A DNA stretch of 64,000 nt from Planctomycetota bacterium (GTDB taxonomy: Bacteria > Planctomycetota > UBA1135 > GCA-002686595), in NCBI GenBank assembly GCA_014238415.1, contig JABABA010000013.1, forward strand, positions 1-64,000, in the 5' to 3' direction. Made by a program: the position numbers and the translations under genes. The notes below the pieces were generated by a model. The model worked only from the letters and a program-made list of their open reading frames with translations, was not told the DNA's origin and made no database searches. This document shows positions 4,111 to 56,450 of this stretch, piece by piece (the first letter of the stretch is position 1; every line of letters begins with the position of its first letter).

Positions 4111-4662
4111 ATGCGAACCATAATCACCGCGGTCCTGGGATTGTTGACGCTCTCGGCCTGCTGCTCTCTTCGCTACAGCGGATCTCTAAGTCCTGTGGGC
4201 CAGGCCAAGTACTTGGTGTGCAGATCCTACGAGGCCATCGACGACCTCTTGGACCAGCATCCTTATCCAGAGGATCTCGATCGTGTCCTCGTTTCCACTG
4301 TTGTGGACATCAATGATGTGGGTCGCACGACCATGTTCGGGCGGGTGATCAGTGAGTGTTTGTCCTCGCGCCTGACCCAGGTCGACAAGGATGTAATTCA
4401 TGCCACCGTTCGATCGGACCAGATGCTTGTGCGCCAGGACGGCCAGTTCCTTCTCTCGCGTGAAGCACGGAACCTGGCTATGGACTACAACGCTCGAACG
4501 GCTCTAGTGAGTACCTACGCCGTGATGGACAAGACGGTCATTCTCTCTTTGAAATTGGTTTCCACGGTTGAGGACTCCACCTTGGCCGGAGTCGAAATCG
4601 TCCTCTGTCGAAATGAGACAGTGAGCGACATGTTGGAAGAACGGGTGCGGACCAGTTACTAG
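4111..4662 (+). CDS. FlgO-like outer-membrane lipoprotein
   Basis: Lipobox LTLSAC; LVSTVVDINDVGRTTMFGRVISECLSSRLTQ resembles the FlgO domain; start corrected from 4024 to ATG 4111 preceded by aggag. Confidence 0.6.
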   Translation: MRTIITAVLGLLTLSACCSLRYSGSLSPVGQAKYLVCRSYEAIDDLLDQHPYPEDLDRVLVSTVVDINDVGRTTMFGRVISECLSSRLTQVDKDVIHATVRSDQMLVRQDGQFLLSREARNLAMDYNARTALVSTYAVMDKTVILSLKLVSTVEDSTLAGVEIVLCRNETVSDMLEERVRTSY

Positions 4663-4753
4663 CTGCTCTTGTCTTTAGTTCTTCAAGAATCATGACCCCC
4701 ATCCCCCCGGTCTTACCTGCGATTTCCCCGACACTACACCTGTACCGATACTA

Positions 4754-5464
4754 ATGAAAGTTCTACATCTGCTCACTTTGTTCGCGTTTCCCGTAGCCGG
4801 GGCTCTGGCACAAGACCCATGCCCGCCACAGCTTCCAATGCCAAGTTTTGGGCAGCATCACTTGAGCCTCTCAATCGGATCTCGGAGCTTGGAAATGGAG
4901 GGTATCGGAGATAGCAATCTCTTCGATAATGATTGGTACAACCGTGGCAGCCAAGCTACCTACGGCTTGACTTATCACTATGGTTCGCCCGGAACGATCG
5001 GGTGGGAAGCTGGCGTGTTGCTCGGTTCTGGCGACACAACCAACAACATCCACTTGGGAACGGGTACTGTAGACGGCACCAAGACCACTCCCGGGGTCAC
5101 GGAATCAGAAACTACCGAGCTGTTTCTGGGCCTCCGCTACGAGGCGGATACCGGGTCGATTCGCCCCTATGTGGGTGCTGGAGTCTGCTACATCGATGCA
5201 AAGGAGTACTTCGCCTGGTCTGACCCCCCTGGTTCCCCTGGCGTGCCCCTGGGCTCTGGCTCGATGTCTGGTGCAGGGGACACATCTGGTTTCTACCTGC
5301 ATGCAGGTGTCAACTTCATTCTCGATGGGAACATGTCCGTCGGACTGGATTACCGCAGCGTAATGGGGACGGAGAACATCGATTTCTTCCCGGGCATGTT
5401 CGCTGGTGGTGGCTCATCGATGGATAGCGATGTGGTTTCCCTTGTTCTAGGATTTGGTTTCTAA
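4754..5464 (+). CDS. Outer-membrane beta-barrel protein
   Basis: Signal peptide (AGALA|QD), alternating aromatic/Gly strands, C-terminal VVSLVLGFGF ending in Phe. Confidence 0.7.
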   Translation: MKVLHLLTLFAFPVAGALAQDPCPPQLPMPSFGQHHLSLSIGSRSLEMEGIGDSNLFDNDWYNRGSQATYGLTYHYGSPGTIGWEAGVLLGSGDTTNNIHLGTGTVDGTKTTPGVTESETTELFLGLRYEADTGSIRPYVGAGVCYIDAKEYFAWSDPPGSPGVPLGSGSMSGAGDTSGFYLHAGVNFILDGNMSVGLDYRSVMGTENIDFFPGMFAGGGSSMDSDVVSLVLGFGF

Positions 5465-5635
5465 GGGAAAACACAGTCGCGGGGTCTGGCGCAGCCCGGC
5501 TAGGCAAGATTCCACACGGATTGCCCAGCGGGCACCCTGCCTTGGTCGAAAGCGTGCTCTTGGGAGTTGCTTTCCGCCCAACCTGTTTCGACCTGCAAAG
5601 GTCTCAGGCCTGGTTGGGGGGCGACCGGCTTGTGA

Positions 5636-6682
5636 TCAGTCGTCCATCAGGTCCATTAGCGCATCGGCGAATGCGTTGCCCATGCGGTTGAACCAGATCG
5701 CGCTGCCCAGGTAGTGGTAGGGACGGTCGGAGCCGACTTTCTCCCACTCCTCGATGTTCTCTCGCCAGGTCGGGTAGCGCGCCTCGGCAGCCTTGTCGAC
5801 CAGGGTGTCCGTGCGCACGGCCCTTACATTTCCGCGGAAGCCCTGCACTTTTTCCATGGCCAACTGCGCCTCCTGAACGGCGAGCATGGCTCCCTTGGCA
5901 GGCTTGGACTGGTTCTGTCCCATCACTCCGATAACGAAGGGCAGCTTGGGTGCTTTCAGGTCCCGCCGGACGTCATTGATGAAGTGCTCCATGTTCGAGG
6001 CGTACTCGACTTCGGCGCCGTTGTATTGATCGTTCCAGCCCTGGAACCAGACGAACCCGGCAAGCTCCGGGGTCTTGCCCTTCAGGGCCGGGAAGCGGGT
6101 GTCCAGCTCGGCCAGGGTGACCTTCACTTCGGTCATCATGTCGCGATAGGACTGGCCGTACTCCGCGCGGATGCCTTCTACGGTCGGCATGGGGTCGTCG
6201 CGGTTGTTCTTCTCGTTGTCCTTCTTGGTCTTCTCGGTCAGCTTCTCATGCTCGGCCTGGATCCGCTCCTCGGGAATCCCAGCGCTCGGTGACCGGAAGA
6301 GCTTGTACAGGGAGTGTCCGCCCCAGGCCGTCTTGATCAAGAGGACCGGTTCATCAAAGGCGTCCCCCAGAACGGTACCCAGCTCAAGCTCCACACCCGT
6401 CCTGTTGGGGGAGCCATAGCCGATGGTCAATCCTCCGCGCCGCTTCAGGTAATTGATGAACACATCATCACGCGTAATCCACTCGCCATCCTTGCGCAGG
6501 TGCGCGAAGAGATCCGCGGTCTTCGGGTTGGTGGCCTGGTATTCGAGCAGCTTGTTCTGTGCCTTGCCCTCCATGTTGGACTGCCCGGCCAGGATGAAGA
6601 CTTTGACACGACCGTCAGCCTGAGCGGGTCCTCCAAGCAGAACGAAAGCAAGAAGAGCAAGGTAGAAGATGCGTGTGTTCAT
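5636..6682 (-). CDS. Sialate O-acetylesterase/carbohydrate esterase (SASA domain)
   Basis: Signal peptide; VFILAGQSNMEGKAQ block; WFQGWND motif. Confidence 0.85.
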   Translation of the reverse strand: MNTRIFYLALLAFVLLGGPAQADGRVKVFILAGQSNMEGKAQNKLLEYQATNPKTADLFAHLRKDGEWITRDDVFINYLKRRGGLTIGYGSPNRTGVELELGTVLGDAFDEPVLLIKTAWGGHSLYKLFRSPSAGIPEERIQAEHEKLTEKTKKDNEKNNRDDPMPTVEGIRAEYGQSYRDMMTEVKVTLAELDTRFPALKGKTPELAGFVWFQGWNDQYNGAEVEYASNMEHFINDVRRDLKAPKLPFVIGVMGQNQSKPAKGAMLAVQEAQLAMEKVQGFRGNVRAVRTDTLVDKAAEARYPTWRENIEEWEKVGSDRPYHYLGSAIWFNRMGNAFADALMDLMDD

Positions 6683-48001: not shown

Positions 48002-48289
48002 ATGCACCGTGCGGGAACAGATTTCAAGAAGGGTGAGTTGGCGGCTTGCCTCTACACCCGAGAGGGCTGCGGCCTTTGTGAGCAGCTCGTCGAGCGCTTG
48101 GGGGAGGCTGGATTGTTGAGGAGGCTGGATCTCAAGATGGTCGATGTGGACTCTGATCCTGGCTTGAAGAAGCTCTACGGCCTGAGATTACCCGTGCTTG
48201 AGGTCGCAGGAGAGCTGATTTTCGAGGGGCAGCCGGATCCTCTCGTCTTGGTGCCAGCGGTACGGGCTGCTATTGAGGTGGCCCCATGA
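48002..48289 (+). CDS. Glutaredoxin-like (thioredoxin-fold) protein
   Basis: CLYTREGCGLCEQL...DLKMVDVDSDPGLKKLYGLRLPVLEVAGELIFEG (CGLC, cis-Pro). Confidence 0.85.
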   Translation: MHRAGTDFKKGELAACLYTREGCGLCEQLVERLGEAGLLRRLDLKMVDVDSDPGLKKLYGLRLPVLEVAGELIFEGQPDPLVLVPAVRAAIEVAP

Positions 48290-49071
48290 GCGCGAAGCTC
48301 TTTGTGCTCTCGGGAAAGGCCCTGGGCACCATCTTCAGTCTGCAAGAGGCCACCATCCTGGGCCGGGGGAAGGATGCGGGGGTGCGGCTTGCCGATGCTT
48401 CGGTCAGTCGATTGCACGCACGAATTGAACCGGAGGGCGACGGCTGGCGAGTGACTGATCTGGACTCGTCCAACGGGATCTGGGTTGCGGGGCAGCGCGT
48501 GGAGACTGCCCTCTTGAAGGATCTCGATGAGTTCAGGGCGGGGGCGTTGGAGTTGCGCATTCGGATTGACGCAGATGGGGGAGGCGAGGTGGCTCCTGTT
48601 CCCGTGGAGAGTGTCAAGCCGGATGGTGTTGAGGGCGGCGAGTCTGCGTCTGGACCTCATACGCCTGCTGACTCGGGATCAGATGCTCCAATCTCCGATG
48701 CAGATTCTTCGACACCAATCGATGCCAGTGGCGAGCTTGAATTGGAGGGGGACTGGTCCGAGCCGCAGTCGCAGCCATCTTCAGCCCCATTCATCAATCC
48801 ATCGGTCTCTTCAACGGGTGCAAGTTCTGCCGCCAGTGTCGCGACTTCCAGCTCCGCCCACGATCCTGCGCGCCCCATCCTGCAGCATGTGGGGGCAGGT
48901 CGTTCGGGGGGGCTGTTTTCCTCAGACCTGGGCCAACAACCGTTGCTCGTGCGTTGGGGACTCTATCTGCTTGCTGCGGCCTTTTTCGCTGGCCTGGTCT
49001 GGGGCGTTCAACACCTGGTTTTTGGGGTTCGCAAAGCCCGTTCGAATCCACCTGCGGAGTCCTTTCAGTGA
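48286..49071 (+). CDS. FHA-domain protein with C-terminal TM
   Basis: LGRGKDAGVRLADASVSRLHARIEPEGDGWRVTDLDSSNGIWVAGQRV; TM WGLYLLAAAFFAGLVWGVQHLVF. Confidence 0.92.
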   Translation: MSAKLFVLSGKALGTIFSLQEATILGRGKDAGVRLADASVSRLHARIEPEGDGWRVTDLDSSNGIWVAGQRVETALLKDLDEFRAGALELRIRIDADGGGEVAPVPVESVKPDGVEGGESASGPHTPADSGSDAPISDADSSTPIDASGELELEGDWSEPQSQPSSAPFINPSVSSTGASSAASVATSSSAHDPARPILQHVGAGRSGGLFSSDLGQQPLLVRWGLYLLAAAFFAGLVWGVQHLVFGVRKARSNPPAESFQ

Positions 49072-49871
49072 GCATAAACCCCTCGATCGATCCGGGAGCG
49101 CCCCGGGAAACAGCGATTCCCCAACTTCTAAAGCAGGAAGGGGCCAAGCTCCTTTCCCTGGCTGGCCGTTTCTGTGGTTCGCGTACGGAAGCGGAAGACT
49201 TGGTCCAAGAGGTTTTTCTGCAGGCCTGGGGCGGCTGGGAGAAGTTTGAGGGTCGTTCCGCTCCGGGCACTTGGCTCTACTCTATCGCTGTGCGCACTTG
49301 CCAACGCATGCACCGCAAGAAGAGCGGCGAGCCGGACAGGCTCGAGTCCCTGGACGAGCTGCTGCCACTTGGATCCCCACGCATGGCTCTTCTGCCATCC
49401 CAGGACGCAGGCCCTTTGGATCTTCAACTTCAGAAGGAACAGGTTGAGCTTATCGAAGCGGCCATCTCTTCTCTGCCCCAGGACTTTCGCATGCCCTTGA
49501 TACTCAAGGAGGTGGTAGGGTTCTCTGTGCAAGATGTGAGCATGATTCTGGACCTGCCCGAGAACACGGTAAAGACGCGCCTGCACCGGGGCCGTCTGAA
49601 ACTGCGCGCGGCCATGGATGTGGTGCTGCCCCAGACCCAGGGCGTGGACCCGAATTACTCACGAGAGGTCTGCCTTGATCTCCTGGCTGCCAAGCAAAAA
49701 TGCCTGGACAACCACCTCGAATTTGAATTCCCAGACGGGATCGTCTGTGAGCGCTGTGCCTCGGTTTTCGGGACCATGGATATGGCCCAGGCCGCTTGCC
49801 GTCAGATCGGCGAGGGAACTCTCCCCGAAGCCCTCCAAAGCCAGATTTTGGGCCGCTTGGAGGGCTCTTGA
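49068..49871 (+). CDS. Sigma-70 family (ECF-like) sigma factor with Cys-rich C-terminal extension, GTG start
   Basis: SRTEAEDLVQEVFLQAW; GTWLYSIAVRTC; FRMPLILKEVVGFSVQDVSMILDLPENTVKTRLHRGRLKLR; tail has five Cys including CERC. Confidence 0.93.
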   Translation: MSINPSIDPGAPRETAIPQLLKQEGAKLLSLAGRFCGSRTEAEDLVQEVFLQAWGGWEKFEGRSAPGTWLYSIAVRTCQRMHRKKSGEPDRLESLDELLPLGSPRMALLPSQDAGPLDLQLQKEQVELIEAAISSLPQDFRMPLILKEVVGFSVQDVSMILDLPENTVKTRLHRGRLKLRAAMDVVLPQTQGVDPNYSREVCLDLLAAKQKCLDNHLEFEFPDGIVCERCASVFGTMDMAQAACRQIGEGTLPEALQSQILGRLEGS

Positions 49872-49977
49872 GATTTCTTGAAAGGGTTTGGGGAACCTGG
49901 CCGGAATTGGTGACTCTCAATGGACAGCGCCCTCTGGCACTCTTGAGAAATCCCGAGACCCGAGACCACCAACCCCC

Positions 49978-51384
49978 ATGTATTTCGAACAGCACTATCT
50001 GACCTGTCTGGCCCAGGCTTCCTACTTTATCGCTGACACTGAATCTGGCAGTGCGGTTGTGGTGGACCCCCAAAGGGATATCGAACCCTATCTTGCGGTG
50101 GCAGAGAAGCACGGCTGGAAAATTGAGCATGTGTACCTGACTCACTTCCACGCGGATTTCCTGGCGGGTCATTTGGAGTTGCGCGAGCGGACAGGGGCCA
50201 AGATTCACCTCGGCGCCCGAGCTGAAGCCGAGTTTGACTTTGTGCCCGAGTCTGACGGCAGCACATTGGAGTTGGGGCCTCTGGTGCGCATTGTGGCAAT
50301 GGAAACACCCGGGCATACGCCGGAGAGCATTTCGCTGCAGTTGTTTGATTCGAGCGCAGATGACTCTGTGCCCCAAATACTCTTGACTGGGGATGCCTTG
50401 TTCATCGGAGATGTAGGCCGGCCGGATCTCTTGGCGTCGATCGGCTATACAAAGGCGGAGTTGGGCCGGATGCTTTATGACAGCTTGCATAACAAGATCT
50501 TGAAGTTGCCGGATGACGTCATGGTCTATCCTGCCCACGGGGCTGGCTCCATGTGCGGCAAGAACCTCTCGGATGAAACCTCTTCCACCATTGGTGAGCA
50601 GCGGCGCAGCAACTATGCCCTGCAGCCAATGACCACCGATGAGTTTCTGGCAGTGGTTACCGCGGATCAGCCCGCGGCTCCCGCTTACTTCTTGCATGAC
50701 GCCGACCTGAACCGCAAGGAGTTCCCGAACCTGGCCGTTGCCGTAGAGCGTGGTCTCGAAGCCCTCTCCTTGGACGGTTTCCTGGCCCACGCCAACCGGG
50801 GTGCCCAGATGGTTGATACCCGCGATGGTGAAGCCTTTGCACAGGGACATCTGGCGAGGAGCCTGAGCATTGGTTTGGAAGGCAAGTACGCCACCTGGGC
50901 GGGTTCTCTTTTGGATTTGAAGCGCCCGATCATTCTGATCGCTGACGCGGGTCGCGAAGAGGAAGCGATCATGCGTCTGGGCCGCATCGGTTTCGACATT
51001 GTGATCGGTTACCTGGATGGGGCCGCTCTTGCATGGAAGGACCGCTCCGAGCTGCTGTCACAATTCGAGCGTTTGGATGCCCTTGAGCTGTCGCAGGAGA
51101 TCGAGGGCGCGGATGCTCCCGAGATTCTTGATGTGCGTAGTCCGGGGGAGTTCGCCGCCGGACACCTGGAGAATGCCCTCAATATCCCCCTTCCTGAACT
51201 TGGGGATCGCCTGGATGAGGTTCGCGGGGCTCAGGCCCTAGTCATTCATTGCGCCGGGGGCTATCGCTCGGTGATTGCCGCCAGCCTGCTGGAGGCGGAG
51301 GGCTTCAGTGGTCTGCGTGACCTGCGCGGGGGCTTTGAGGCCTGGACCAACGCCGATCAAGCGGTGGTGCAGCCCAACGCCTGA
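49978..51384 (+). CDS. MBL-fold hydrolase fused to two rhodanese domains (persulfide dioxygenase-like)
   Basis: VYLTHFHADFLAGH; ETPGHTPESISL; TGDALFIGDVGRPDL; YPAHGAGS; C-terminal rhodanese EILDVRSPGEFAAGH...IHCAGGYRS. Confidence 0.93.
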   Translation: MYFEQHYLTCLAQASYFIADTESGSAVVVDPQRDIEPYLAVAEKHGWKIEHVYLTHFHADFLAGHLELRERTGAKIHLGARAEAEFDFVPESDGSTLELGPLVRIVAMETPGHTPESISLQLFDSSADDSVPQILLTGDALFIGDVGRPDLLASIGYTKAELGRMLYDSLHNKILKLPDDVMVYPAHGAGSMCGKNLSDETSSTIGEQRRSNYALQPMTTDEFLAVVTADQPAAPAYFLHDADLNRKEFPNLAVAVERGLEALSLDGFLAHANRGAQMVDTRDGEAFAQGHLARSLSIGLEGKYATWAGSLLDLKRPIILIADAGREEEAIMRLGRIGFDIVIGYLDGAALAWKDRSELLSQFERLDALELSQEIEGADAPEILDVRSPGEFAAGHLENALNIPLPELGDRLDEVRGAQALVIHCAGGYRSVIAASLLEAEGFSGLRDLRGGFEAWTNADQAVVQPNA

Positions 51385-51482
51385 GCGCTGAGGAAATAGC
51401 CGAAGTTTCCCGGGAACCCTTTCGCGTGGCTTGTCTCCAAGAGAGTGGGCCAGTTCTCCAACGCAAGAAAACAAATACCATC

Positions 51483-52043
51483 ATGACTCAATTCCAACTG
51501 ACCAGCGTCAACGTTGACAACCCTGTGGCCCTCCTGTCCGCAAAACGCTTCGTGGTGGATGTTCGCACTCCCGCGGAATTCAATGAGGTGCATGTGGAAG
51601 GTGCCCTGAGCTTTCCCCTGGGAGGCCTGGCCCGTAGCGCGACCAAGGTGGCGGAACTGGCCGCTGGCCGGCCCGTGACCTTGATCTGCCGTACGGGCAA
51701 GCGTGCGGAAGAAGGACGCAAGTTGCTGTCAAGTTCCGGGCTTGACGATGCTCATTGCTTGGAAGGGGGCATTGAAGCCTGGATTGCTGCGGGCAACCCG
51801 GTCACGCGCAGCGGCGCCAAAGCGATCAGCTTGGAGCGTCAGGTGCGCATCAGCGCGGGAGCCCTGGTGTTTCTCGGTAGCTTGGCTGCTTGGTTTGTTG
51901 CGCCCGCCTTTTTGATTCTGCCGGGGTTTGTGGGCGCGGGACTGGTCTTCGCCGGAGTGACTGACACCTGTGGCATGGCAATGATGTTGGCCAAGATGCC
52001 CTGGAACAAAGCCCGAGGGTCCGCCCCTCAATATTCTGTCTGA
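51483..52043 (+). CDS. Rhodanese-like protein with C-terminal DUF2892-like membrane region
   Basis: FVVDVRTPAEFNEVHVEGALSFPLG; LICRTGKRAEEG; VRISAGALVFLGSLAAWFV...FAGVTDTCGMAMMLAKMPWN. Confidence 0.92.
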   Translation: MTQFQLTSVNVDNPVALLSAKRFVVDVRTPAEFNEVHVEGALSFPLGGLARSATKVAELAAGRPVTLICRTGKRAEEGRKLLSSSGLDDAHCLEGGIEAWIAAGNPVTRSGAKAISLERQVRISAGALVFLGSLAAWFVAPAFLILPGFVGAGLVFAGVTDTCGMAMMLAKMPWNKARGSAPQYSV

Positions 52044-52060
52044 CGGTCCAGGTTGCTTGC

Positions 52061-52879
52061 ATGTTCTTTGCTCTGATCGGTGCTCTGGTGGTTGGCTTGT
52101 CCCTGGGAGCCTTGGGTTCCGGGGGCTCGATTCTGACCGTGCCGGTCTTGACCTTTCTAGTGGGCCAGCCCGAAAAGGTGGCCATTGCTGGGTCGTTGGT
52201 CATCGTGGGGGGCATCGCCCTGGTGGGAGCCAGCAGGGCCTGGCGCGCGGGGCGTGTGGACTTGCACAGTGTGCTCTGGTTCGGCGTGCCGGGCATGGGT
52301 GGATCCTTCGTTGGGGCGTGGCTTGGGGGCATGGTCCCGGGCAGAGTGCAGTTGCTGGTCTTTGGCCTCGTGATGCTCGTCGGGGCCTGGCTGATGTTGC
52401 GGCCCATGCAGGCGAGCAAGGTGGCTCACGGACGGCCGCCCTTGGCTCTGATCGTGGTGGAGGGCTTCTTGGTGGGGGTCATCACCGGATTCGTGGGGGT
52501 GGGTGGAGGTTTTTTGATCGTGCCTGCCCTCGGGATCTTGGGTGGTCTATCCATGAGCCGCGCGATCGGTACAAGTCTGGTGATCATCGTGTTGAAGTCC
52601 TTGGCGGGTTTTGTCAAGTATCAGGGAGTGTTGGAGGCCCAGGGGTTTGAACTGGATTGGGTCGTGATCGGTCTTTTCATTGTGGTGGGAATCGTGGGCA
52701 CGACCTTGGGCCAGACCTTTGGCCAGCGCATGTCCGACGTGCGCTTGCGACAGTCCTTTGCGGCGTTGCTCTTGGTGGTGGGTACCGGAATCCTGGTTCA
52801 AGGCGCCTGGCGATTTTCTCACGCCGAATTCCAGACGCCCACGAGTGATTCCGCCGCGTCGTCCCAGGTTCGCACCTGA
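52061..52879 (+). CDS. Sulfite exporter TauE/SafE family protein
   Basis: GALVVGLSLGALGSGGSILTVPVL; VGVITGFVGVGGGFLIVPALGILGGLSMSRAIGTSLVII. Confidence 0.93.
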   Translation: MFFALIGALVVGLSLGALGSGGSILTVPVLTFLVGQPEKVAIAGSLVIVGGIALVGASRAWRAGRVDLHSVLWFGVPGMGGSFVGAWLGGMVPGRVQLLVFGLVMLVGAWLMLRPMQASKVAHGRPPLALIVVEGFLVGVITGFVGVGGGFLIVPALGILGGLSMSRAIGTSLVIIVLKSLAGFVKYQGVLEAQGFELDWVVIGLFIVVGIVGTTLGQTFGQRMSDVRLRQSFAALLLVVGTGILVQGAWRFSHAEFQTPTSDSAASSQVRT

Positions 52880-54941: not shown

Positions 54942-56450
54942 ATGCAACGAACCTCAAAACTCTGGATCGCCGCCCTCCTGGTGGGTGCCCTGCTTCCCCA
55001 TGTGCCAGCCCAGGATCGACAGGTTCGCACGGGCGAGCCTCGGCAGACTCCAGGCTCCAAAGTCTCCTCACAGCAGACCAAGGTTTTTACTCTGCCCTTC
55101 GGTGACAACCTGGTCCGTCAAGCAGACGGCGCGGCTACTTGCGGTCTGGGGAGCGACTGGCATGCAGGTAGACGCCGGGAACTGGCTAGCCGCCTGGAAA
55201 CTGGGATTGTGGTCTTGCGAGGCCTGCCCGAACCCAGAGCCAGCTTGGGTTTTCATCAGGACAAGAATTTTTGGTATCTGACCGGAGTCGAGAGTCCGAA
55301 TGTTGCTTTCGTGATCGACCTGGACACAGGCCGTGAGGTGCTGTTCGTTTCCAAACCCAGCGGCTTTGCAGAGAGCTGGAATGGGGAGATCTGGGACACG
55401 GACGATGAATGGGTCAAGGAACTGACCGGCGTTGAAGAAGTGCGCGCAAACGATCCCGGCAGAGGCGGCAACAGGGGTCTACTCGAACTGATTGATGAGT
55501 TGGTGGAGGAAAACGCTGAGCGTCCGATCTGGACCCTGCAAACCGCTCATGTGGAACTGTCCGGAGCTTACGACAGCGCCTTGCCCTATGACCGTGCGCG
55601 CAAGCTTGACAGCCTGGATGGAAGGATCAGTCGCGAGACGGCTTTGGCCGGGCACCTTTCCCAGCGATATGCAGAGCAGGAAATTGAAGTGCGCGACTTG
55701 ACCCCGGCTCTTTGGGAGATGCGCGTGATCAAGACTGACAGGGAAGTGGAAGCCATGCGTCGCGCATCTCGTTCGGGAGCCCTGGCGATTCAAGAGGCAA
55801 TTCGATCCACGCGAGCCGGTCTTGGGGAATGGGACATCGACTCCTTGATTACCTGGCAGCAGCGAAGATTCGGCGCCACGGGTCCGGCGTATGCGGCCAT
55901 TGTGGGATCTGGCGCCAACAGCCTTGTCTTGCACTACAATTTCTCTTCACGGCGCATGCTTGAGGGAGAAGTGCTGTTGGTGGACTTTGCTCCCGAGGTG
56001 GATCACTATGTCAGTGACGTGACCCGCACCTGGCCAGTTGGCGGCGTGTTCACAGACGAGATGATTCCCATCTACGACGCTGTTCTTGCCGCCCAGGAGG
56101 CTGCTATCGCTCAGGTCAGAGCAGGTGCGCGCATGCGGGACGTGTCTGGTGCAGCCACCAAGGTGTTGCGTGAGCGCGGGTACCAATGCCCCCATGGAAT
56201 CTCTCATTCGGTGGGTATGGCGGTGCATGATCCCGGGCGCCTGGGCCAGACACTCAAGGCGGGCATGGTGTTCACCATTGAGCCGGGCGTGTATGATTCA
56301 GACACCGGTATCGGCGTTCGGATCGAGGACGTGATCCTGGTGACAGAAGATGGCTGCGAAGTCCTGTCGGCTGACTGTCCCAAGAGTCGCGAGGCTATTG
56401 AAGCCCTGATGGCTGAAGAAGGCATTCTCGACCTGATTGATGCGCGCTGA
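54942..56450 (+). CDS. M24 family Xaa-Pro aminopeptidase, secreted
   Basis: Signal peptide; N-terminal FHQDKNFWYLTGVE; VDFAPEVDHYVSDVTRTWPVGG; GISHSVGMAVHD; FTIEPGVYD; IEDVILVTEDG. Confidence 0.93.
   Translation: MQRTSKLWIAALLVGALLPHVPAQDRQVRTGEPRQTPGSKVSSQQTKVFTLPFGDNLVRQADGAATCGLGSDWHAGRRRELASRLETGIVVLRGLPEPRASLGFHQDKNFWYLTGVESPNVAFVIDLDTGREVLFVSKPSGFAESWNGEIWDTDDEWVKELTGVEEVRANDPGRGGNRGLLELIDELVEENAERPIWTLQTAHVELSGAYDSALPYDRARKLDSLDGRISRETALAGHLSQRYAEQEIEVRDLTPALWEMRVIKTDREVEAMRRASRSGALAIQEAIRSTRAGLGEWDIDSLITWQQRRFGATGPAYAAIVGSGANSLVLHYNFSSRRMLEGEVLLVDFAPEVDHYVSDVTRTWPVGGVFTDEMIPIYDAVLAAQEAAIAQVRAGARMRDVSGAATKVLRERGYQCPHGISHSVGMAVHDPGRLGQTLKAGMVFTIEPGVYDSDTGIGVRIEDVILVTEDGCEVLSADCPKSREAIEALMAEEGILDLIDAR

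Follow-up and report, generated by a model that had tools for sequence, protein, structure and literature searches.

We analysed a 64,000-nucleotide stretch (the window) of a planctomycete draft genome (G000; 3.74 Mb in 84 contigs) and propose that the extracytoplasmic function (ECF) sigma factor encoded at 49068-49871 is a one-component regulator dedicated to sulfur/thiol stress and kept inactive in cis by its own cysteine tail. We place the probability of this reading at about 0.68. Sequence comparison shows the linkage of the genes, the promoter sites and the joint losses. The circuit appears to be real and conserved, with a well supported link from the sigma factor to its promoters, and binding to sites such as those at 49889 and 51410 is highly probable. 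That the tail both inhibits and senses, with reactive sulfur as the signal, is a more tentative proposal, and the sensing step is hypothetical. The cysteine tail and the two promoter-like sites are the informative features of the locus, and both were absent from the first-pass annotation, which had been made from the sequence alone. The features concerned are as follows.

49068-49871, plus strand: predicted regulator, an ECF sigma factor whose C-terminal tail is rich in cysteine; GTG start (Sigma70_r2, E = 1e-18; Sigma70_r4_2, E = 3e-12)
49665-49868, plus strand: cysteine tail of the sigma factor, with C202, C227-x2-C230 and C244 (motif VCxDLLxxKQxxLD ... CxRC ... D ... C)
49889-49920, plus strand: predicted promoter of the metallo-β-lactamase (MBL) gene (-35 GGGAACC, 49891-49897; -10 CTCTCA, 49914-49919)
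49978-51384, plus strand: CstB-like persulfide dioxygenase consisting of an MBL domain, a degenerate rhodanese and an active rhodanese (HCAGGYR) (Pfam Lactamase_B and two Rhodanese)
51410-51441, plus strand: predicted rhodanese-TauE promoter (GGGAACC, 51412-51418; CTCCAA, 51435-51440)
51483-52043, plus strand: rhodanese (active cysteine, CRTGKR) fused to a YgaP-like transmembrane region (Rhodanese, E = 7e-14; YgaP-like_TM, E = 2e-9)
52061-52879, plus strand: TauE/SafE-family transporter, predicted to export sulfite or a sulfur compound (PF01925, E = 3e-44)

Together with two upstream genes for a glutaredoxin-like (Grx) and an FHA-domain protein, these make up the six plus-strand genes of 48002-52879, which are as first described, each domain call being backed by Pfam. 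The gap between the sigma gene and the MBL start, 106 bp, also agrees with that description. The same gene order is found in G001 (proteins 90-99% identical), in G002 and, split over two contigs, in G006, which excludes an assembly accident. No ArsR- or CsoR-type repressor gene was detected in 48002-52879 with Pfam (six genes and four flanking ones). The 3' ends of the TauE gene and of a convergent glycosyltransferase gene overlap by about 60 bp (52819-52879).

The first-pass annotation had cited Blh-type MBL genes as the precedent. The nearest relative of the MBL protein is CstB (MBL-pseudorhodanese-rhodanese) and not Blh, and the protein has the MBL, degenerate rhodanese and active rhodanese of the CstB type over its full length. 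It matches PDB entry 3tp9 along its entire length (E = 2.5e-86), and residues 25-460 of Staphylococcus aureus CstB (3r2u) align with its residues 1-453 (E = 7e-58), so that the architecture is shared with both and only the regulation differs. The rhodanese-YgaP protein matches YgaP (2mpn, E = 2.6e-15). The persulfide operons regulated by CstR, BigR and SqrR have this enzyme set in common with the window (CstB-like MBL-rhodanese, rhodanese and TauE). Those operons are under repressors of the CsoR/ArsR type, whereas an activating alternative sigma factor is predicted here.

Linkage, promoter sites and gene loss

A search with the tail only, covering 84,980 species genomes, gave 67 loci, and all 67 named loci encode a complete ECF sigma factor with the tail (tail-ECF). 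The hosts are Planctomycetota (including Phycisphaerales), Acidobacteriota, Verrucomicrobiota/Lentisphaerota, KSB1 and some other bacteria. Relatives occur in 35 of 154 genomes of the window's class and in 32 of 392 genomes sampled from the phylum. The sigma factor of L169, a record titled Bacillota MAG 7, nests among close planctomycete sequences, and its label or binning may therefore be wrong; judged by sequence, it is a probable mislabelled or mixed bin.

Unbiased clustering of the neighbouring open reading frames gave MBL-rhodanese, rhodanese-YgaP, TauE, a YeeE/YedE (Sulf_transp) pair, Blh-phosphatase-like and Thioredoxin_7 genes as recurrent co-directional neighbours. No anti-sigma gene is among the recurrent clusters. 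In a stricter tblastn count, a co-directional sulfur gene (CstB-like MBL-rhodanese, rhodanese, TauE, YeeE/YedE or Blh-phosphatase) lies at most 4 kb downstream at 31 of 66 family loci, compared with 0 of 40 ECF genes outside the family, drawn from ten genomes within the same order (Fisher p = 1.8e-8, which is optimistic because the sequences are related). The kind of sulfur gene varies across the sigma tree and from locus to locus (MBL, YeeE/YedE, Blh-phosphatase, rhodanese), and we are therefore not dealing with one inherited block.

At L067, L132, L146, L158, L159, L167, L176 and L179 the tail-ECF gene lies immediately 5' of a split YeeE/YedE (Sulf_transp) pair, and these loci suggest that one branch of the regulon serves the import of thiosulfate or sulfur. 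At L059, L123, L129, L135, L145 and L174 it is followed by a gene whose small product is a putative lipoprotein-like Blh-phosphatase/DSP-PTPase (PF22741/PF04273); elsewhere this domain is known from Blh, where it is fused to the persulfide dioxygenase. Efflux genes of the RND/MFP/TolC type also recur near tail-ECFs (L130, L136, L140, L162, L171 and L179), and TolC-type genes preceded by the promoter motif described below are found at L130, L136, L140 and L171.

Two words are enriched just 3' of the sigma gene, CGGGAAC in 27 of 70 regions (2.2 expected) and CTCTCA in 24 (6.4 expected). The bipartite ECF-type model is YCGGGAACCT-N14/15-NCTCTCAA, often with GTG or TG directly 5' of the second box. 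Scores above 14 are reached in 38 of 69 post-sigma regions versus 0.8 in shuffles. In the comparison with control ECFs, 37 of the 66 family loci have the motif and 1 of the 40 controls does. A model trained on non-MBL loci recovers 14 of 17 MBL loci (0.5 by chance), while one trained on MBL loci recovers 15 of 52 non-MBL loci (1.1 by chance).

The search for a motif upstream of 49978, which the first-pass annotation had put forward as a check, returns the ECF-type match at 49889. This site is the best in the 64 kb window with a score of 23.8 (20.4 under the model trained without MBL loci). The second-best is the site at 51410 (22.5), which was outside the training set and whose counterparts at the rhodanese promoter score 24.2 in G001, 18.0 in G002, 23.9 in G003 and 16.6 in G006. 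Genome-wide in G000, the exact pattern GGGAACS-N13-TGNCTCYMA has two matches only, 49889 and 51410, and in the G001 genome it is likewise limited to the MBL and rhodanese promoters. The MBL upstream regions of 16 sigma-less genomes contain no strong site (best 14.1, which is marginal; all others below 11). A slightly looser pattern was applied to 34 further genomes; the 16 with the sigma factor have 12 sites, and the 18 without it have 2. Elsewhere in the family loci, strong sites precede MBL (L139, L148), YgaP-TM (L130), YeeE (L140, L167), peroxiredoxin (L128) and TolC-type genes (L140, L171) as well as the sigma gene itself (L125), and a few precede genes without a clear link.

A third match in the window, at 56176, was rejected as a promoter; it is located inside a peptidase gene. 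A larger G000 regulon was also rejected: the listed sites with one or two mismatches are no commoner than those of a reversed-pattern control, and the ones inspected (three with one mismatch, one with two) lie within or across open frames.

The sister genomes G005 and G004 are drafts (78% and 88% complete, respectively), but in both the deletions are internal to contigs, and the flanks match. G005 (L069; Grx 100% and MBL 94% identical to the window) has two internal deletions in its locus at 4500-6360. The first corresponds to 49109-49902 of the window, i.e. nearly the whole sigma gene and the -35 element of the MBL promoter, and the second to about 51558-52767 in the rhodanese-TauE genes. In G004 (L070; a relative of G002) only a broken sigma remnant is left and rhodanese-TauE is gone. 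Whole-genome searches of G004 and G005 revealed no intact second copy of the sigma factor, rhodanese-YgaP or TauE, while the MBL, Grx and FHA genes stay intact in both. If the rhodanese-TauE pair depends on the sigma factor, two such separate joint losses are to be expected.

The first-pass annotation had named the ECF-like sigma factor as candidate regulator of the MBL, rhodanese and TauE genes, and the linkage count, the common promoter and the joint losses all back this choice. The same three lines of evidence stand against a chance adjacency in which the sigma factor is unrelated to the sulfur genes. The sigma and MBL genes are indeed separate in several genomes, as chance adjacency would allow, but that explanation is already disfavoured and we consider it very improbable.

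The cysteine tail and its possible signal

The protein contains sigma2 and sigma4 without region 3 and scores above the cut-off of TIGR02937 (sigma70-ECF), as is the case for ECF sigma factors. Its tail spans about 70 residues with the cysteine spacing C-x24-C-x2-C-x13-C. In the family alignment C202, C227 and C230 are each present in 68 of 69 members and C244 in 65 of 69; C202, unlike C227, C230 and C244, belonged to the search pattern, and its conservation is therefore partly selected for. Two cysteines of sigma2 are also conserved (C36 in 66 and C78 in 64 of 69 members). The SLDELLPFG segment in the sigma2-sigma4 linker (residues ~90-110; window 49335-49400) is conserved in the family and is a possible docking site for the tail.

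Pfam models leave the tail uncovered apart from stray single-member matches, which rules out a known Pfam domain. Pairwise hhalign gives a weak profile similarity to zinc anti-sigma (ZAS) domains (39%, E = 3e-4), RsiW is matched at E = 0.26, and a fold search with the model of the tail by itself gave no match among solved structures. The layout of a CxxC followed by a helix is that of ZAS domains, with C244 as a further conserved cysteine, while the zinc site of ZAS/zf-HC2 domains (C ... H-x3-C-x2-C) is not present in the tail, which lacks its histidine. We rejected the tail as a proven ZAS domain on these grounds. Because the histidine is missing and no fold is matched, we say that the tail would work like a fused anti-sigma factor and do not claim that it is one.

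The AlphaFold2 model of the sigma factor (pLDDT 86, pTM 0.83) resembles anti-sigma-bound structures, with target TM scores of 0.74 for SigW-RsiW, 0.74 for CnrH-CnrY and 0.73 for RpoE-NepR, and only 0.31-0.39 for sigma factors in RNA polymerase complexes. In this model the placement of sigma2 and sigma4 suits a tail that keeps the factor closed.

ECF sigma factors controlled by metal-binding cysteine-rich C-terminal regions are known from CorE, CorE2 and OrbS (PMC8999054, PMC9023288). CorE and CorE2 of Myxococcus xanthus (ECF44, now ECF238) resemble the window sigma factor in having a cysteine-rich C-terminal domain and in being regulated without an anti-sigma factor (PMC8999054), but they sense metals, act on metal genes and, for CorE, have the spacing C-x4-C-x2-C-x1-C. 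The four conserved tail cysteines provide the C-terminal extension of a CorE-like factor. The CxC of the sigma2-sigma4 linker is lacking, this linker being cysteine-free across the aligned tail-ECF family, and the tail spacing differs from closely spaced metal-binding cysteines (PMC9023288). The on-board C-terminal cysteine cluster of OrbS from Burkholderia cenocepacia (ECF243) likewise inhibits its sigma factor (PMC9023288). Unlike the window protein, OrbS is proteobacterial, senses Fe(II) through C-x2-C-x3-C-x5-C and has siderophore targets. A review lists ECF287 and ECF288 as further cysteine-rich groups, with examples in Nocardia and Blautia.

These precedents make it conceivable that the sigma factor controls both promoters while its tail senses a metal (Zn, Cu or Fe), the sulfur genes then answering metal-induced thiol stress. 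Four invariant cysteines would fit a Zn(Cys)4 site, and some loci contain the RND/MFP/TolC genes typical for metal efflux. Set against this, it is persulfide, thiosulfate and rhodanese genes that recur beside the tail-ECFs, and the cysteine spacing and linker depart from CorE, CorE2 and OrbS as described, and we regard a metal signal as unlikely.

The proposed release of an ECF factor by thiol chemistry and the GGGAAC-type -35 element are shared with SigR-RsrA, other sigma/ZAS pairs and SigW-RsiW; the tail also has the CxxC-then-helix layout and the weak similarity to RsiW. In sigma/ZAS pairs the anti-sigma factor is a separate protein with H-x3-C-x2-C, whereas the window has a fused domain without this histidine. 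On the SigR-RsrA precedent, the factor could be a general disulfide/oxidative-stress sigma that reads disulfide stress via glutaredoxin or thioredoxin and whose regulon includes sulfur genes incidentally. Thioredoxin-fold genes do recur (Grx in the window, an upstream Thioredoxin_7 in another family, a thioredoxin at L175 and a peroxiredoxin target at L128). Yet no RsrA-like protein is linked, and no broad thiol-stress regulon is seen in G000, as its only two exact sites are both at sulfur genes. A SigR-like role is thus about as improbable as a metal signal.

Several observations weigh against a dedicated sulfur/thiol-stress sigma factor with an inhibitory tail. About half of the family loci have no sulfur gene in the 4 kb downstream, and some adjoin TIM-barrel, glycosyltransferase or RND efflux genes with an uncertain link. 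The MBL gene is retained without the sigma factor in G004 and G005, and can therefore have another source of transcription. In G022, G024, G033 and G035 the sigma and MBL genes are apart and the MBL gene has no motif, and a trans regulon at these distant genes was rejected. When motif and sulfur gene were compared in phylogenetic pairs, the pairs were too few to tell either way. The similarity of the tail to zinc anti-sigma domains is as weak as described above, and AlphaFold2 may predict a free ECF factor as closed regardless of the tail.

The glutaredoxin-like and FHA genes

Upstream of the sigma gene lie:

48002-48289, plus strand: glutaredoxin-like protein (DUF836) with a CGLC motif (PF05768 Glrx-like, E = 4e-13)
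48286-49071, plus strand: FHA-domain protein with a C-terminal transmembrane stretch (FHA, E = 1e-14), overlapping the Grx gene by ATGA

The nearest solved structure to the Grx-like protein is XCC2852 (E = 2e-6). The overlaps given in the first-pass annotation are exact (ATGA, 48286-48289, for Grx/FHA; GTGA, 49068-49071, for FHA/sigma), but such overlaps are ordinary inside operons and carry little weight by themselves. A conserved Grx-FHA-sigma unit acting as the regulator, as had been suggested, is not supported. Grx-FHA adjoins the sigma gene in no tail-ECF locus outside the window's genus, and no sigma-type promoter was found upstream of Grx. Of the synteny that was anticipated among homologues, the linkage of sigma and sulfur genes recurs, and that of Grx-FHA is limited to the genus. 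As a conserved tricistron the arrangement is ruled out beyond the genus, both by this absence elsewhere and by the retention of intact Grx and FHA genes in the sigma-less G004 and G005.

Within the genus, the three proteins could still form a genuine signalling unit in which FHA reads phosphorylation and Grx the thiol state to set sigma activity. The tight overlaps are kept in G001 and G002 and the order is the same in four genomes; the survival of Grx-FHA after sigma loss, its absence from every other tail-ECF locus and the lack of an adjacent kinase make such a unit a poor candidate. Grx-FHA is probably a genus-level accessory outside the core circuit, with possible roles in thiol reduction and as a membrane-bound phosphopeptide reader. 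In another family of the order (L066, L180, L181, L182 and L184) a Thioredoxin_7 protein (WCGWC) is encoded immediately upstream of the tail-ECF, which parallels the Grx of the window's genus.

Proposed mechanism and significance

In the mechanism that we propose, the ECF core would recognise promoters of the form YCGGGAACC-N14/15-NCTCTCAA and transcribe the CstB-like persulfide dioxygenase-rhodanese gene and the rhodanese-TauE pair. Persulfides would be oxidized to sulfite and thiosulfate, with the rhodaneses handling sulfane sulfur, and the sulfite-type products would then be exported. The four-cysteine tail probably packs on sigma2/sigma4 and keeps the factor off, in place of an anti-sigma factor. 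Reactive sulfur or another thiol stress may modify the tail cysteines and so release the sigma factor, candidate changes being persulfidation, disulfide or polysulfide bridging, or loss of a bound metal. Reactive sulfur is the first-choice signal because of the nature of the target genes.

A bolder version, which we hold at somewhat less than even odds, is that a so far undescribed ECF family, found in Planctomycetota, Acidobacteriota, Verrucomicrobiota and relatives, combines sensor of reactive sulfur species and activator in one protein. Here tail persulfidation or polysulfide bridging would free the sigma factor for persulfide dioxygenase, rhodanese, thiosulfate-import and sulfite-export genes.

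In the papers found, the regulators of persulfide and sulfane sulfur mostly act by direct DNA binding, as repressors or activators (BigR, SqrR, CstR and SoxR/sHdrR; for BigR see PMC5823870), and no description of an ECF factor tied to this control was found in the open-access literature. If the bolder version is correct, no alternative sigma factor before this one would have been dedicated to sensing reactive sulfur. A sigma factor with an on-board cysteine sensor would regulate the same chemistry by another logic, and the small set of ECF factors known to be controlled by their own tails, so far through metals, would come to include thiol chemistry. Sulfur regulators have hardly been studied in the host phyla. 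The circuit offers a defined promoter and, in strain Pla86, where the sigma gene adjoins a Blh-phosphatase gene, a cultured host for tests, and the promoter can serve to find further reactive-sulfur genes.

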